Source of the DNA: a virus
Length of the DNA: 36,370 bases
Reading direction: 5' to 3' (one strand)
Virus record (IMG/VR): IMGVR_UViG_3300027759_000221
Coordinates: 1 to 36,370 of that record
The notes under the pieces are model-generated. The model was given only the letters and a program-made list of their open reading frames with translations. It was not told the origin of the DNA and did not search any database. The position numbers were made by a program, and so were the translations under genes. This document shows, one piece after another, positions 4,295 through 32,828 of this stretch; the stretch's first letter is position 1, and every line of letters begins with the position of its first letter.

Positions 4295-4903
4295 CTAATT
4301 GTGAACAAACAGAATATGCGGTAGTTTTACCACCAAAATCTCTTGGTCGTCTAGCAAGATATCTTCAAAATAACTCGCATCTCCAGCATAGCCTTTGTCT
4401 CGAAATCCAACCCTTTTAGCTCTGTCTGTCTTCACAATTGCAGCGCTTATATCAATTGAATTGCGCCTATAACTTGTTTCAAAGTAAGAATAAGGCGGCA
4501 AATCTCTACCGCCAGGGCGGTTGTGGGAATGCACCATGTCAAACAAAATGACATCAGGCTGCCCAGTGGCCACGTTCAAAATCTCTACTGCTCTTGGGAT
4601 AAAGTAATTATCTGCATTGGTCAGCAGCAAATAATCGCCCGTGGCCTGCTCAATCCCAATCTGCCTCAAAGAATGCCCGTAGTCGTTAAATCTAGACTCT
4701 GTACAAAAATACTTGATTTTCTTTGGCATCTGCTTGGCCAGTGGCCGCATTGCCTTTTCAAACTCGGTGCTTGGCCCATCGTGAATGACTGTAAGTCGCC
4801 AGTTGTCTGCGCTCTGATTTATCCAAGACTGGACAAACACCCGCATTTCATTGGTGCGCTCATAGGCCACCGCGAATACATCAATCAAACCATGCCTTCG
4901 CAT
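4295..4903 (-). CDS. Glycosyltransferase, GT2-like (GT-A fold)
   Basis: 202 residues from the ATG at 4903. A frame extends to 4960, but that start lies deeper inside the upstream gene and gives an atypical N-terminus. The protein begins with a strand typical of GT-A enzymes (GLIDVFAVAYERTNEM) followed by WRLTVIHDGPSTEF, the usual second strand ending in a nucleotide-contact Asp. The expected DxD region reads TGDYLLLTNADNYFIPRAVE, with NAD in place of a canonical DxD. Family-2 transferases move a sugar from a nucleotide-sugar to an acceptor. The gene overlaps the next transferase (stop at 4881) by 23 bases, so the two are probably translated together. Targets could be a virion protein or host surface glycans. 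Acceptor and donor are unknown. Confidence 0.75.
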   Translation of the reverse strand: MRRHGLIDVFAVAYERTNEMRVFVQSWINQSADNWRLTVIHDGPSTEFEKAMRPLAKQMPKKIKYFCTESRFNDYGHSLRQIGIEQATGDYLLLTNADNYFIPRAVEILNVATGQPDVILFDMVHSHNRPGGRDLPPYSYFETSYRRNSIDISAAIVKTDRAKRVGFRDKGYAGDASYFEDILLDDQEILVVKLPHILFVHN

Positions 4904-5573
4904 ATTCGGGTCGATTCTCTTTGAGCCATGGCATTGCATCCTCATGCAGCTGCTTGGCATTCATGCCAATGGTGTTGCTGCCAATGTGGTGGACATAGCT
5001 TGCGCTGACATAGTGGCCGTAGCCTTTTTGGATTAAGTCCATACAATGCACATCATCGCTGTACCAATTCAGAGGGGGAAACTTTGCCTCTTCAAATGCG
5101 TCACTTGATATCCATGCAAAGATTGGGCTAACCTCTTGGACCAGTTTGATGTGGGCCTCAGACGGGAATTTGTAGAAGCTCAGTCGCTCACCAGGCTGGC
5201 AAATGCGCACATTCTGGCCAGACCTTGCCGCATCACTTCGAGCCGCCACCCACCCAGCTTTGTAGCTGTTCATGGTCCTGACAATGGCCACATCTTCCAT
5301 CAGCACCTTCACGCTGGTGGGTGTCAGCACAATGTCATCATTGGCCACAATGCATGATGACCAGTCCTTGAGCGCTGCCTCAATCACCTCGTTGTAGTCC
5401 TCGCCAAAGTTCCTTGGCTGGCCAAAGAGTTTGTAATCGGCATCAAAACGCTCAATGACAGACTCTGGGCCGCGCAGATAGACCGGACACTCTGGCGCGT
5501 ATTGCTTGATGGATTCCAGCAGCACGGCCAGACCATGGCCCCTCACAGTGGCAATGACAATCGGACAAATCAT
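4881..5573 (-). CDS. Glycosyltransferase-like protein (GT-A fold)
   Basis: 230 residues. The N-terminus (MICPIVIATVRGHGLAVLLE) and a later VANDDIVLTPTSVKVL segment, where NDD stands in the DxD position, look like a GT-A glycosyltransferase. Further on, PPLNWYSDDVHCMDLIQKGY and YVHHIGSNTIG resemble the acceptor-side acidic motif and metal-binding His of the family. It starts with an ATG overlapping the stop of the preceding small basic-protein gene (ATGA at 5570-5573). Together with its downstream neighbour it forms a two-transferase block between the terminase and portal genes. An enzyme that decorates the capsid, tail or host surface is plausible. The specific reaction cannot be read from sequence. 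Confidence 0.72.
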   Translation of the reverse strand: MICPIVIATVRGHGLAVLLESIKQYAPECPVYLRGPESVIERFDADYKLFGQPRNFGEDYNEVIEAALKDWSSCIVANDDIVLTPTSVKVLMEDVAIVRTMNSYKAGWVAARSDAARSGQNVRICQPGERLSFYKFPSEAHIKLVQEVSPIFAWISSDAFEEAKFPPLNWYSDDVHCMDLIQKGYGHYVSASYVHHIGSNTIGMNAKQLHEDAMPWLKENRPEYAKAWFD

Positions 5574-22748: not shown

Positions 22749-24464
<1,716 letters not shown>

Positions 24465-26600: not shown

Positions 26601-27194
26601 TTATGTCAGGACAGACAGTGCATGGTTGATGTGCTTGATCCGGTCATCTAAGCCAATAAAGCCGCCATTGATCTTTTTGGTCAAGGTTTTATAGTCTTGG
26701 GAGTCCGCATACTGGTTGAGCTTGTGGGTGTCCCAAAACCACCCAGCAGTCAGGGCTGCATACTGGGGCGTGGCCACCAGCTCTGGCTGCATGATCAAGT
26801 CCACGCCAAGCGCTTGGCCAGCATGGTGGTAGTTCGCAGACCCTGTCAATTGGATGCAGCCTCGGCCTCGGAAACGATAGCCATCGCCACTTGCCTCATC
26901 CCTGTTGCCCATGCGGCTGCTGTAGACAGTGTTTGCAATGAGCTTGGGATTTCTGGCACACATTTGGGCCTTGGCAGCGTCAAACCTTCTGGGCCAGAGC
27001 TTTTGCAGTGCTTCAGCTTTGTAATTGAGGTTTTCCTCAAGCACCCTAAAATTGCCACACTCATGGCCACACTGGCCAATAAAAGCAGCCTGGCGCAGGG
27101 GCGTTGAAATGTCAAAGCGCTGAAAAGTCTCATTAAGCGCATCGACCCACTCTGGGCCAATGTGCAGTTGCTGGAGCTGCTGACTATTGACCAT
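26601..27194 (-). CDS. Endolysin, GH19 chitinase/lysozyme family
   Basis: 197 residues from ATG 27194, which has AGGAG nine bases upstream; a TTG at 27200 would place the Shine-Dalgarno too close. The glycoside hydrolase 19 fold is visible: RQAAFIGQCGHECGNFRVLE contains the catalytic Glu after His, followed by ENLNYKAEAL, then GYRFRGRGCIQLTGSANYHH and a final helix with GLDDRIKHINHAL. It degrades peptidoglycan at the end of infection. No signal peptide or SAR segment is seen, so export would depend on a holin. Its start overlaps the Rz gene end by 11 bases. Confidence 0.9.
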   Translation of the reverse strand: MVNSQQLQQLHIGPEWVDALNETFQRFDISTPLRQAAFIGQCGHECGNFRVLEENLNYKAEALQKLWPRRFDAAKAQMCARNPKLIANTVYSSRMGNRDEASGDGYRFRGRGCIQLTGSANYHHAGQALGVDLIMQPELVATPQYAALTAGWFWDTHKLNQYADSQDYKTLTKKINGGFIGLDDRIKHINHALSVLT

Positions 27195-27660
27195 TGACAA
27201 GTCTCCTTACTTCTTCATAGGCGCTGGCGCAGGCGTTGAGCTTGGTGATGGCTTTGTCTCCATCGGCTGCGATATCGATAAGAGCTGCAATAGTCTGTCG
27301 CTCAGATTCGCTTGCATCGGACTGGCTGGGTTGTGTATTTCCAGTGGCAGCGCTGGCACTTGCACTGTTTTGTGGACAACTTGGGGTTGGGAGGCGCAGC
27401 CGACCAGTGCGAGCAAGCTCATGCATAGCAGACTGTTTTTTCTTGACATCATCTTGGGCCTTTCTGAGTTTCGTTTCCTGATCTTGCAGTTTTTCGCCAA
27501 GTTCTTTCTCTTTGGCTCTGGCTTCATCATTCTTTTGGGCAATGGCCAGTTTCATGTCATTGTCCCTGTCTTCCCAGCCAAAGTGATAGCCACCTCGGTA
27601 AGAACCAAACAAGGCAATGCCGATTGCTAGGGCGATATAGGGTAGTGGGATGCCAAACAT
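27184..27660 (-). CDS. Rz: Rz-like inner-membrane spanin (i-spanin)
   Basis: 158 residues. N-terminal membrane anchor IPLPYIALAIGIALFGSYRG (about 4-23), then a long Lys/Glu/Gln coiled coil (DDVKKKQSAMHEL and before), and a Ser/Ala-rich region ahead of a helix ending AYEEVRRLVNG. Spanins join the inner and outer membranes and fuse them in the last step of lysis. AGGAG precedes the ATG at 27660, which overlaps the upstream stop as TAATG. A lipoprotein gene is nested in another frame (27207-27452), the classical Rz/Rz1 arrangement. Confidence 0.85.
   Translation of the reverse strand: MFGIPLPYIALAIGIALFGSYRGGYHFGWEDRDNDMKLAIAQKNDEARAKEKELGEKLQDQETKLRKAQDDVKKKQSAMHELARTGRLRLPTPSCPQNSASASAATGNTQPSQSDASESERQTIAALIDIAADGDKAITKLNACASAYEEVRRLVNGQ
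27207..27452 (-). CDS. Rz1: Rz1-like outer-membrane spanin lipoprotein (nested in Rz)
   Basis: 81 residues from the ATG at 27452 (a second ATG follows directly), with AAAGG six bases upstream. Signal sequence and lipobox are clear: MSRKNSLLCMSLLALVGCAS, cleavage before Cys. The mature protein is Pro- and Gln-rich (VHKTVQVPALPLEIHNPASP, PSPSSTPAPAPMKK), as usual for o-spanins. It lies entirely within the Rz gene in a different frame, which matches known embedded Rz1 genes. It would be anchored in the outer membrane and bind Rz in the periplasm. Confidence 0.85.
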   Translation of the reverse strand: MMSRKNSLLCMSLLALVGCASQPQVVHKTVQVPALPLEIHNPASPMQANLSDRLLQLLSISQPMETKPSPSSTPAPAPMKK

Positions 27661-29097: not shown

Positions 29098-29186
29098 GGC
29101 CACATCAAAATGATGACAAAACTACCCCAAATGACAAAGACAGTGATGCAGACCGCGGCAATGAGTGCCACGGCCCAGTCTTTCAT
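29094..29186 (-). CDS. 30-residue single-span membrane protein
   Basis: MKDWAVALIAAVCITVFVIW then GSFVIILMWP. Nearly all residues form one membrane span. A GGGG stretch lies upstream of the ATG, and both ends overlap neighbours through ATGA (29183-29186 and 29094-29097). Proteins this small can be pinholins or lysis regulators; nothing in the sequence decides. Confidence 0.6.
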   Translation of the reverse strand: MKDWAVALIAAVCITVFVIWGSFVIILMWP

Positions 29187-29392
29187 AGCCCCAACATTTT
29201 TTTCACAAATTCGGCAGCCACCCCTGGTCCAAACAAAACCGCGGCAATCACGATATACAGCAGATATTCAATCTTTGTCATGCGCTTTGAGCCAGCAGCA
29301 AAACTTTGCTGAATGCCCTCGTATCGTTCAGCACAAATGGCTTCATGCACTGACAGTTTGGCCTCTGTCTCACTGATCATTTTATCGCTCAT
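29183..29392 (-). CDS. Small coiled-coil protein with C-terminal membrane segment (XhlA-like architecture)
   Basis: 69 residues from the ATG at 29392. N-terminal helix (KLSVHEAICAERYEGIQQSF) followed by basic residues and a membrane span IEYLLYIVIAAVLFGPGVAA, then a short basic end. A soluble helix plus one C-terminal span is the layout of XhlA/holin-accessory proteins; similarity is architectural only. The start overlaps the stop of the kinase fusion gene (TGATG). First gene of the small membrane cassette. Confidence 0.65.
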   Translation of the reverse strand: MSDKMISETEAKLSVHEAICAERYEGIQQSFAAGSKRMTKIEYLLYIVIAAVLFGPGVAAEFVKKMLGL

Positions 29393-30177
29393 CACACACC
29401 CATTTGTTTTCTTATCTTGGTTGCTGAGATAGCGTGTGTTGCGTCATCGAAAGACTCTTGCTCGATTTTGTAGCCAACATCACGCCCATAGGTGATGTTA
29501 ACAATATTTGGGACAAGCTGAATTTCATACTGACCTTGGTACAAAGGGTCTAAATCACGCTTGATAAAGTCTTTGACCTGATTGGCCGCAAACGGGTTTG
29601 AGCCGTTCCAGCCCTGGCAGTCTCTAATCTGGATCACAACTTGACCAGTCTTTGCCAATGCTCTCTCAAACAGTTTTCGATGGCCTTCATGCCAAGGTTG
29701 CCATCTTCCAAGCATCTGAACAGTCTCTTTCTGCCAATCAAAGACAGGGCGTTGGCGGTTGTCTAAGATGTGAGCAGCAATAAACTCACCCCACTTCTCA
29801 GCCTTCTGCTCAGTAATCCTAAAGTCATACTGCTCTGGGGCTACAAACACCTTGTTGGTGTCTTCAAAGCGGCCTTGGTTGATGGTATCAACCCAGACAG
29901 TCCAATCTGCTTTAAAGTTGTTACGCATCTCAACCAGAGGGGCAACAAAGTCGCAGATCACATAATCCACATCGTAACTGTCAGCAAGATCACGCATTCT
30001 CAAACTCTGGCGAATACGGCCTTCATGGGAGAAGTCCCAATCGTTGTATTTCTTGCGCACATCATCAGCATTCAGCCACATGACTGTCTTGCGGTTGCTT
30101 TGCAAGTGGTCAAGAATGTGCTGTGCTAGATAAGTTTTACCAGCACCAGGCAAACCCATGATTAGAATTCTTTTCAT
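29392..30177 (-). CDS. Fusion of APS-kinase-like and nucleotidylyltransferase domains
   Basis: 261 residues from the ATG at 30177 (ATGA overlap with the sulfotransferase stop); the longer frame to 30231 is less likely. Residues 1-120: P-loop kinase with GLPGAGKT (8-15), LNADDVRKKY (36-44), DFSHEGRIRQSLRMRDLADS and ICDFVAPLVEMR, matching the order in adenylylsulfate kinase (N-A-D, FS-x-E-x-R, phosphosulfate-loop region, F-x-P). Residues about 155-261: a nucleotidylyltransferase with GRWQPWHEGH (HxGH, 163-166), NPFAANQVKDFI, YGRDVGYKIEQ and ISATKIR (250-256), like NMN/cytidylyl-type enzymes. APS kinase makes PAPS from APS. Whether the second domain adenylates sulfate or another substrate is unknown. 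Confidence 0.78.
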   Translation of the reverse strand: MKRILIMGLPGAGKTYLAQHILDHLQSNRKTVMWLNADDVRKKYNDWDFSHEGRIRQSLRMRDLADSYDVDYVICDFVAPLVEMRNNFKADWTVWVDTINQGRFEDTNKVFVAPEQYDFRITEQKAEKWGEFIAAHILDNRQRPVFDWQKETVQMLGRWQPWHEGHRKLFERALAKTGQVVIQIRDCQGWNGSNPFAANQVKDFIKRDLDPLYQGQYEIQLVPNIVNITYGRDVGYKIEQESFDDATHAISATKIRKQMGV

Positions 30178-30995
30178 CCCTTGACCTTGTAAAGTTGTTT
30201 GATTGCAAACTCTGGTGCGGGTGTGCGCCAAAACTCTTTATTGCCATATTTATCCCAAACCGATTTTGGCAAGATTGAGGGGCGTTCTTGCCATGTCACT
30301 TCTTTTCTGACTGTATGTAGACTTTTCATGTTCAAGGCTTTGTCGTATACCTCGTTGTCATACTCTACATTCTTGAAGTCATGGTCAAAGTAAGGCTTGC
30401 CAATAAACCCATAAATCTCACGCATCACGCTCTCAGGCTGTTTGCATAAAGATTCATATTCCACCAACATAATCATGTCGGGGTTTAGAAGTAAACCTTC
30501 TTCTAGAAAGTAATAAGGCTTGACCACTTGCCCTTCCTTCTGAACATCCATTAAGGCATCACATCTTGTAGTGACTGTTTGGTTTGCCTCATTATCTGTA
30601 AGGCTTGCACCATACAAAGAATTCTTGGCAGCAATGCGTTCAAAGCTGTCCAGTATCCAAGGCAAATCACGCACACAGCAAATAATCTTGGTCTGTGGGT
30701 ATAGGTCTTTCAGCAAAGATGTTTTGGCAGTCCATCCCCTGCTAGTGTCAAATACTGTGTTTGGCTTAACTGCTTTGTAGTAAGAGTTAAACAAGTCTTT
30801 GAGTATTTGCTTGCGTCTTTCTTCATCAATCAGGTGATTGCTTTCACTTCCAGTAATGACATTGATGGTAGATGACACCAGGTGCTGTACTGGCGAGGAA
30901 ATATCTGCATAGAACTCAGGGTTCTGACGCAAGATAGCTGAGAGCAGGGTTGACCCCGACCTTGGTAAACCAGAGATGAAGAAAAACTCTTTCAT
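30174..30995 (-). CDS. Sulfotransferase (PAPS-dependent)
   Basis: 273 residues. The 5'-phosphosulfate loop is FFFISGLPRSGSTLLSAILR (GLPRSGST at 9-16), and the 3'-phosphate binding strand/helix is KIICCVRDLPWILDS (R109, S117). It is probably of the Sulfotransfer_3 type. The C-terminal part (EVTWQERPSILPKSVWDKYG) resembles the usual substrate-side region. The enzyme transfers sulfate from PAPS to a hydroxyl or amine of a sugar, lipid or protein. It lies between an appendage gene and the APS-kinase-like fusion, coupled by ATGA overlaps at both ends, which strongly suggests the kinase supplies its donor. Confidence 0.82.
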   Translation of the reverse strand: MKEFFFISGLPRSGSTLLSAILRQNPEFYADISSPVQHLVSSTINVITGSESNHLIDEERRKQILKDLFNSYYKAVKPNTVFDTSRGWTAKTSLLKDLYPQTKIICCVRDLPWILDSFERIAAKNSLYGASLTDNEANQTVTTRCDALMDVQKEGQVVKPYYFLEEGLLLNPDMIMLVEYESLCKQPESVMREIYGFIGKPYFDHDFKNVEYDNEVYDKALNMKSLHTVRKEVTWQERPSILPKSVWDKYGNKEFWRTPAPEFAIKQLYKVKG

Positions 30996-31420
30996 TCTGC
31001 TGGAATCCAGTTGACTGTGCTTTCATCCCATTGATAGCGCACGTTGCCACCATTCATAATGGCATTAGCGGGTCTTGGTACTGGCGCACCCCATGTCATT
31101 GTGTCCGAGTAACCAATCCATGAGGGGTAAGGTTTACGGGCTTCATGTTCAGCAGCTCTAGCAGCGTTGTATTCTTCTTCGGTCAAGACTTGCAACACAC
31201 CCGCAATGGTAGTGTCGGCATCGTCATCACAAGTGCCATAGTATCTTGGCGCACGCAAATATGTACCATCAGAGGCTGTCGTTATAGGCCATGATGAATT
31301 GTCACTCCATAAATAAATCCATCCTTTGACATCAGGCATAGATGGGCCTGTGCGTTGTGGCTCGGATGTGCAAGGTATTTTAGTTACTGCATCAACTTCA
31401 GTTAGGCAAATATATTTCAT
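30992..31420 (-). CDS. Tail-associated protein, chaperone/appendage type
   Basis: 142 residues. Middle: DADTTIAGVLQVLTEEEYNA followed by ARAAEHEARKPYPSWIGYSD and TMTWGAPVPRPAN, then YQWDESTVNWIPAE. The (R/K)PYPSW-x10-W-x-APVPxP...Y-x-WDE...W pattern is one I know from small phage fiber-assembly/appendage proteins encoded just after fiber genes. Here it follows the lectin-like protein, overlapping it as ATGA. It may help fold that protein or be part of the tail. Confidence 0.65.
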   Translation of the reverse strand: MKYICLTEVDAVTKIPCTSEPQRTGPSMPDVKGWIYLWSDNSSWPITTASDGTYLRAPRYYGTCDDDADTTIAGVLQVLTEEEYNAARAAEHEARKPYPSWIGYSDTMTWGAPVPRPANAIMNGGNVRYQWDESTVNWIPAE

Positions 31421-32070
31421 GCGGACACCCTTCTAACTGCACGTACATTTTTTACGCCAGTTTTAGATTCACGATATAAAAGGCCATAACTAAAATGCTG
31501 TCGCCATGCCGTAGCTTCATTACCCGTATTTGCCGTACTAGACCAGTAATTGTTAGCCGTAAATGCTTGCGCACCGCCTGATTGGAAAGCCGCTGCTGAA
31601 GTTTGCGCTGGTGAACCAGAACTGTAATTAGTGCTTATTGGTTCTGGTGAAACTGCATTTGCGTTTGCGCCAGAACTTGTGTCGTTAGCTGTTGTTGTAG
31701 GCTTTAAAAAGTAATAACACACTTCTAATTCATTTTTAGCTGGCATATACCAATCACTAAAACCACCAATTACAAGGTCATTACAAAAGTGAACCGCTGG
31801 ATAAACAGTTGAACTACCATCAGCCACCAAATCAGCAGTATTTTGTGGGCCATCTATAAGACTAACGGGAATAATTCCAGTTCCTATATTTTTCCATGCA
31901 AGCGAACTTTGAGCAGAAGAAACAGGGCCAATAACAAGGTTATAAACTGTTCCACTTTGGTTAATTTGACCCGCAAAAAAACCACCGCCATATGCCGCAC
32001 CAATGTCTGCTGGCAAAGGAGGAATAAAACTCCTATGGTTTTGAAAAACAGCTTGTAGTGCGCCACTCAT
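31417..32070 (-). CDS. DUF1566-like lectin-fold tail protein (putative receptor-binding)
   Basis: 217 residues. The C-terminal half has the DUF1566 (C-type-lectin-like) pattern: [60 protein letters not shown] then RRV. Such domains occur at the tips of phage fibers and as variable proteins of diversity-generating retroelements. No reverse transcriptase is present in this window. The N-terminal part ([20 protein letters not shown]) resembles other DUF1566-bearing appendages. The gene is clearly AT-richer than the structural genes (two sampled 60-base stretches are 32-33% GC), hinting at separate acquisition. Coupled at both ends by ATGA. Confidence 0.75.
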
Positions 32071-32828
32071 GTTAAGCCACTCCCAGAAATAAGCCAGTTG
32101 GTAGAAGTAATTTTGATTGCCGTGGCAGAACCATACTGAGCAAGACTTCGTGAGCCAGTTGTACCAGCAGGAGACAAATACATTGTGTCTGTGGTAATTG
32201 CAATTGTCACCACTTGGCTTGTCATGTTTATAAATGTCAAGGCAGTGCCTACTGGATAAGCCACATTTGCATTTGAATCAATCGTAAATGTTCTGGCATT
32301 GGCATCAGTTGATGGGTGAAAAATCACCTTGCCTGAGTCTGCCAATACTGCTGTGTATGCTGCGCTTTGACTGTTAACTGGAATATTTCTAAAGCCAACT
32401 GCATTAGTTCCATCAACTGTGAGTGTATTGTCTGCACCACTAATTGTTTTATTTGTCAGGGTCTGTGTCCCTGTCAAAGTGACATCACCAGTGGCAGCAG
32501 CTGCAAAACCTAATGTGCCAGAGCCGTTTGTCTTCAAAACATAATTGGCCGTGCTGTCAGCTGTGGGCAATGTGAATGCCGTGACAAAGCTCTGCAGGTT
32601 GGAATCATAGGCCAGCACATCAGTGCCAATGGCCAAGCCAAGTGCTGTCCTGGCAGCTGATGCAGTAGCGCCACCAGTGCCACCTTTTGTGACTTTTAGC
32701 ACTGGGCCGGTGTCAAACAATGCGTCAATAGAGTCTAAGTCTGTATTGATCTTCGTTCCCCAGGTGTCGGTAGATGCACCGACTTCGGGTTTAGTCAGCA
32801 ATAGATTCGTGGTGGTTGTATCAGCCAT
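32067..32828 (-). CDS. Tail fiber-like protein
   Basis: 253 residues, GAGGTG before the ATG at 32828. N-terminus [20 protein letters not shown] then [14 protein letters not shown] is the recurring start of phage tail fibers that attach to the virion. The centre is Gly/Thr/Ala-rich ([20 protein letters not shown]), and the C-terminus has beta-rich repeats ([40 protein letters not shown]). It probably forms trimers and precedes the lectin-like protein, with which it could make one composite fiber. No enzymatic domain. Confidence 0.8.

Follow-up and report, generated by a model that had tools for sequence, protein, structure and literature searches.

A virus-encoded fusion of an APS-kinase-like domain and a nucleotidylyltransferase as a proposed minimal PAPS synthase, and related candidate ATP sulfurylases in SAR11 bacteria

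How does a phage that encodes a sulfotransferase obtain the PAPS that such an enzyme consumes? Homologous PF13469 sulfotransferases have been found in the Synechococcus phages S-SKS1 and S-SRM01 and in OM43 phages, where their function was called unclear and no PAPS-making partner was described (PMC10580990). In the present study, we analyzed a stretch of 36,370 nucleotides (IMG/VR record IMGVR_UViG_3300027759_000221, positions 1 to 36,370; hereafter, the window) from a freshwater virus of bacteria. The window pairs its sulfotransferase gene with a gene that fuses an APS-kinase-like domain to a nucleotidylyltransferase (NT) domain. We examined the two genes and their relatives in viruses and bacteria; our literature searches for the kinase-NT module found no paper that names the gene.

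The sulfotransferase gene (30174..30995, 273 amino acid residues) and the fusion gene (29392..30177, 261 residues plus the stop codon at 29392-29394) both lie on the minus strand, at the positions given by the first-pass annotation. The fusion starts at the ATG at 30177, as opposed to the TTG at 30231 that opens the longer open reading frame (ORF). Because this ATG overlaps the stop codon of the sulfotransferase gene by four nucleotides (ATGA, 30174..30177), translational coupling of the two genes, as had been claimed from the sequence, is plausible; the overlapping run is, however, longer than the claimed pair and comprises six genes that abut or overlap. In minus-strand order, these genes encode a tail-fibre-like protein (32067..32828; phrog_24210 tail fiber, E 3.7e-4), an Lcl_C-domain protein in the fibre block (31417..32070; PF07603, 52 bits against a cut-off of 34.9), a 142-residue ORF that overlaps the sulfotransferase start (30992..31420; a weak match to phrog_7759, which has no assigned function in PHROG), the sulfotransferase, the fusion, and a 70-residue ORF (29183..29395). 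The lysis genes follow downstream, among them an endolysin gene on the same strand (26601..27200; phrog_181, E 2e-78), and the pair is located between fibre and lysis genes as the annotation had stated. Elsewhere in the window, an ORF with a long low-complexity Thr-Gly repeat was observed in the structural gene region (22749-24089), and two small ORFs between a portal-like gene and the terminase gene (4295-5573) may, at a guess, be glycosyltransferase-like.

The sulfotransferase exceeded the gathering cut-offs of both PF13469 (Sulfotransfer_3; 67.4 bits versus 27) and PF00685 (46.6 versus 22) and matched phrog_27463. A PAPS 5'-phosphosulfate motif (GLPRSGSTLL) near the N-terminus and a 3'-phosphate-type motif (RDLPWILDS) can be read from its sequence, and the protein is predicted from family and motifs to be a PAPS-dependent sulfotransferase. 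The fusion matched PHROG_10255 over residues 1-260 (E 3.9e-50), and relatives were found in at least 597 viral stretches (viral contigs); the whole-length match and the number of relatives argue that the gene is not a chance ORF. Its AlphaFold2 model was confident (pLDDT 92.9, pTM 0.80). Pfam, PHROG, the motifs, and the model folds thus agree with the anatomy first proposed for the pair, namely, a sulfotransferase beside a fusion of an APS-kinase-like domain and an HxGH/ISxTKIR nucleotidylyltransferase.

The kinase domain (residues 1-141, 29755..30177, minus strand) carries a Walker A motif or P-loop (GLPGAGKT, residues 8-15, 30133..30156) that is near-invariant in 51 relatives. It scored above the gathering cut-off of PF01583 (37.2 bits versus 21.1) and below the equivalog cut-off of TIGR00455 (25.9 versus 138.7); we therefore call it APS-kinase-like and not an apsK equivalog. 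When its model was compared with the PDB, the best matches were all APS kinases (VIA Z 18.9-15.8; best with 4fxp, 141 residues, rmsd 1.9), followed by gluconate kinase (15.0), in agreement with the annotated assignment. Profile searches that used either the stand-alone kinases or a single Bradyrhizobium kinase as the query gave almost only APS kinases as top matches, and the domain is similar to PRK05541, a broad 'adenylyl-sulfate kinase' group. In APS kinases, the APS site consists of a DxxR motif, a Phe, an Arg, an Asn, and a C-terminal Lys/Phe lid. In the kinase domain studied here, D38, R41, F49, and R54 are conserved at what we take to be the APS-binding positions, Q57 replaces the usual Asn, and the C-terminal half, including the lid, is shortened.

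The NT domain (residues 144-261, 29395..29748, minus strand), about 118 residues long, was modelled alone with a pLDDT of 92.0. Fifteen positions were invariant across 54 NT sequences. They include most of GRxQPxHxGH, with both His residues of the HxGH nucleotide-binding motif (HEGH, residues 163-166, 29680..29691); the first Gly, the Arg, and the Val of YGRDVGY, a hallmark of the family (29470..29490); and the Ala and final Arg of ISATKIR (residues 250-256, 29410..29430), in which the first Ile, the Ser, and the Thr were each present in at least 90% of the sequences. The HxGH and ISxTxxR motifs together with the fold place the domain in the HxGH nucleotidylyltransferase superfamily. The comparison with NMN adenylyltransferase (NMNAT) that the annotation had proposed gave a fold of the PPAT/NMNAT type (Z 11.2 / 10.5 for the model; PPAT 5h16, Z 11.2, 108 residues, rmsd 2.7). 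By profile, the nearest solved relatives were the archaeal/NadM-type NMN adenylyltransferases (MJ0541, 1ej2, 2qjt; E 1e-9), which share GRxQPxHxGH and ISxTxIR with the NT, and sequence alone would suggest NMN as the substrate. However, the NT scored far below the NMN adenylyltransferase equivalog cut-off (TIGR01527, 28.1 versus 181.2), lacks much of the second half of NMNAT in the profile alignments, and has YGRDVGY; its neighbours, outside the Casjensviridae, are related to sulfate and not to NAD.

Is the NT then a form of classical ATP sulfurylase? Searches with Pfam and TIGRFAM-type profiles gave no match of the fusion to PF01747/TIGR00339 or to TIGR02039 (CysD/CysN-type ATP sulfurylase), the stand-alone NT gave no Pfam match at E 1e-4, alignment to a SAR11 Sat with hhalign detected no kinship (probability 1.6), and the NT sequence search returned no PF01747-type chain; the absence of Sat from the fold list was not counted as evidence. 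Classical ATP sulfurylase homology was thus dropped. The first reading had placed the domain in a different fold family; a separate family nearest to NMNAT/PPAT is what we found, within the same HxGH superfamily. ATP sulfurylase, too, belongs to the HxGH enzymes, with the motif HNGH in human PAPSS (PMC11697783), and adenylyl transfer to sulfate by the NT is therefore chemically reasonable.

Known bifunctional PAPS synthases (human PAPSS1; Aquifex Sat-APS kinase, 2gks) likewise fuse an APS kinase with an HxGH adenylyltransferase. PAPSS1 has the same kinase-first order as the window fusion and ranked first (1x6v) when the entire fusion model was searched with Foldseek. The fusion differs from these enzymes in its size (261 versus about 620 residues), in its short kinase, and in its NT of NMNAT/PPAT type instead of PF01747. 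CysD/CysN with CysC, and NodPQ, reach the outcome proposed here, APS and then PAPS for sulfotransferases, by means of unrelated proteins.

If the fusion supplies sulfotransferases, the two should occur together, and the first-pass annotation had proposed a survey of this co-occurrence. Among the 62 viral loci with flanking sequence in the clade of the window, 61 had a sulfotransferase gene no more than 5 kb from the fusion, and in 43 the two genes were adjacent; of 14 longer records, 13 encoded PF13469. In diverged viruses, it was detected near the fusion in at least 14 of 58 loci, a lower bound because the one home-made profile missed some TPR-type and PF03567 enzymes; PF03567 genes were located at three such loci (directly downstream in L126; also L099 and L123). 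At two others (L090 and L095), we found a gene for a small, unnamed protein that has a similar P-loop. Genome searches of five isolate phages that carry the fusion, four of them Casjensviridae, gave no PF13469 match. The expected co-occurrence therefore holds in the clade of the window, whereas many diverged lineages and these isolates have no detected PF13469 gene; the annotation had named, as evidence against its idea, a fusion that is widespread without any sulfotransferase and turns over only unrelated substrates, and our survey bears out half of this. We looked for a single universal partner gene in the diverged phages and found none, as the neighbours differ. In marine T4-like contigs (L089-L121), the fusion was near genes for PurA, MetK, a phosphoribosyltransferase (APRT), and MazG. 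In Casjensviridae, the fusion overlaps at its start with a same-sized gene, which encoded NADAR in both loci that were checked (L082 6559-7732 and L083 6559-7735).

The module also exists in bacteria, namely SAR11, SAR86, Bradyrhizobium, SAR116, and a marine alphaproteobacterial lineage. The fused form occurs in phages, Bradyrhizobium, SAR116, and some SAR11, and a split form of two adjacent genes (about 135 and 125 codons) in SAR11, SAR86, and the marine alphaproteobacterial lineage. As split and fused states recur, the two activities seem to belong to one pathway. The phosphatase CysQ removes the PAP that remains after sulfotransferase reactions. A cysQ gene was directly upstream of the module in 17 loci, close relatives that we counted as one lineage, the marine alphaproteobacterial one; a representative scored above the TIGR01331 cut-off (287 versus 229). 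Sulfotransferase genes of two families adjoin the module: PF13469 in SAR86 (L207 and four more loci); a relative of the window sulfotransferase 40 bp from the fusion in Bradyrhizobium (L173); TPR-PF13469 genes in L183, L185, L188, and L171; and PF03567 in one bacterium (L220). In three of these loci, all from Bradyrhizobium (L183, L185, and L188), the fusion and TPR-sulfotransferases are accompanied by type I secretion-like genes, possibly as a sulfation-and-secretion cassette. Some SAR11 fusions (L164 and L165) are in surface-polysaccharide loci next to a phosphoheptose-isomerase-like gene.

PF13469 sulfotransferases were present in 37 of 48 module-bearing genomes versus 2 of 14 controls. Canonical Sat was found in 4 of the 48, an APS kinase above the cut-off in 6, and CysD in 8 (not found in 40), although individual absences are weak because many of these genomes are single-cell or metagenome assemblies. 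The SAR86 genome G037 (L221, CP097973.1), titled a complete chromosome, carries the module in split form together with two sulfotransferases, and its genome profile search gave neither Sat, nor CysD, nor an apsK over the cut-off.

To relate the NT to APS metabolism, we surveyed 118 genomes of Pelagibacteraceae (SAR11) with a requested completeness of at least 80%. Most SAR11 have APS reductase and no known ATP sulfurylase (PMC10356861); in our survey, AprA was found in 65 genomes, Sat in 8, the NT in 75, and PF13469 in 48. The NT was present in 60 of the 65 AprA genomes and in 15 of the 53 others (table [[60,15],[5,38]]; Fisher p 2e-13), and a sulfotransferase in 34 of the 51 kinase-bearing genomes and in 14 of the 67 others (table [[34,17],[14,53]]; Fisher p 6e-7); both p values ignore relatedness and overstate independence, because the genomes are mutually related and partly incomplete. 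Twenty-five genomes had the NT without the kinase; AprA was present in 22 of these, and just 5 of those 22 had a sulfotransferase. This pattern is the one that APS chemistry predicts, with the NT wherever AprBA works and the kinase added where PAPS is needed.

The kinase-less NT of SAR11 lies directly upstream of the APS reductase genes aprM-B-A; in 21 genomes, the end of the NT gene and aprA are 1394-1423 bp apart, which is the space of aprM and aprB. We read 70 apr loci. The gene immediately before aprM encoded the NT at 22 of them and, at 38 others within L264-L330 (e.g. L266 8098-8493), a protein with a HIT domain (PF01230); none of the 70 had both the HIT gene at this site and the module. 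Some HIT proteins are reported, according to the title of the cited work, to cleave APS by hydrolysis or phosphorolysis (PMC8704414), so that two unrelated candidates for APS handling seem to trade this slot. The HIT protein could take the place of ATP sulfurylase, acting as an APAT-like enzyme (APS phosphorylase or hydrolase). The NTs of apr loci as a single clade were rejected (AU p=0.001), with the lone, fused (L168 and L169), and split (L294 and L296) forms separate; thus, the linkage of the NT with apr probably arose more than once. Many independent events had also been considered; this idea was dropped, since the lone apr-linked NTs form one clade and the non-single-clade result holds for the wider apr-linked set.

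From these observations, we consider it quite likely that the fusion acts as a minimal PAPS synthase, in which the NT, derived, we suggest, from the NMNAT/PPAT branch, represents a sulfate adenylyltransferase family apart from Sat (PF01747) and CysDN. From ATP and sulfate, the NT would form APS by AMP transfer, with release of PPi; the kinase, strongly supported by the fold of its model, would then phosphorylate APS at its 3'-OH and so yield PAPS; and the coupled sulfotransferase would spend PAPS late in infection on some acceptor. Candidate acceptors are a glycan of the host surface or the products of the fibre genes immediately upstream, as suggested by the position of the cassette between fibre and lysis genes. 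That one protein makes PAPS for the adjoining sulfotransferase, the central claim of the annotation, is the best-supported reading through its genomic context, i.e., CysQ, the two sulfotransferase families (PF13469/PF03567), and AprM-B-A. Counting against it are the diverged phages with no detected sulfotransferase, the T4-like neighbours, the NADAR overlap, the kinase score below TIGR00455, the shortened C-terminal half of the kinase, and the proximity of the NT to NMN adenylyltransferase instead of ATP sulfurylase.

If the NT were degradative only (ATP formation from APS and PPi, or a different reaction that consumes APS), the phage kinase alone would make PAPS from host APS. The lone SAR11 NT accompanies AprMBA, which is thought to run as sulfite oxidation, and swaps places with the HIT protein, which speaks in favour of this; however, APS synthesis is needed where the NT is fused with an APS kinase and where sulfotransferases accompany the module in genomes that have neither Sat nor CysD, and ATP sulfurylases are reversible, so we regard a purely degradative role as improbable. 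Equally doubtful is a module whose product is some other nucleotide, activated or phosphorylated at the 3' position, for instance one that donates a sugar or a phosphoramidate. Campylobacter has an APS-kinase relative, Cj1415, that reportedly makes such a nucleotide, and the similarity to PRK05541 and the surface-polysaccharide loci of L164 and L165 are in accord, but the kinase-less NT at AprMBA and the module-adjoining CysQ would be left unexplained. NAD salvage by a NadR-like enzyme of reversed order, with nicotinamide riboside converted to NMN by the kinase and NAD then formed by the NT, was first considered on account of the NMNAT matches (nearest by profile, among the nearest by fold) and the NADAR neighbour, and was demoted to the least probable reading, since the kinase is nearest to APS kinases, NadR appeared only among the weaker NT matches, the equivalog score and the missing second half speak against NMNAT, and the linkage with AprMBA, CysQ, and sulfotransferases would have no explanation.

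With the NT as an ATP sulfurylase, the kinase-less form probably serves sulfite oxidation in SAR11, converting AprBA-made APS to ATP and sulfate, and it may supply the Sat function that most SAR11 lack. It is likely, in our judgment, that the NT (about 125 residues, of NMNAT/PPAT descent) constitutes a third, previously unrecognised ATP sulfurylase family that closes the SAR11 gap, and that its fusion with a short APS kinase is the smallest known PAPS synthase. The module thus bears both on how SAR11 finish sulfite oxidation and on how sulfotransferases are supplied in genomes that have neither Sat nor CysDN, and a named candidate gene makes the gap directly testable. In phages, it would give the sulfotransferases a supply chain and would explain sulfation in hosts without PAPS synthesis. 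The split module of SAR11 (L213-L241) was often observed near a DmdA-like gene, a Rieske oxygenase gene, and a methyltransferase gene. In one SAR11 genome (G033), which carries the new module elsewhere, a Sat-like gene and a gene for an APS-kinase-like protein (above the PRK05541 cut-off) adjoin sugar-nucleotide-like genes (L271 6873-9876).
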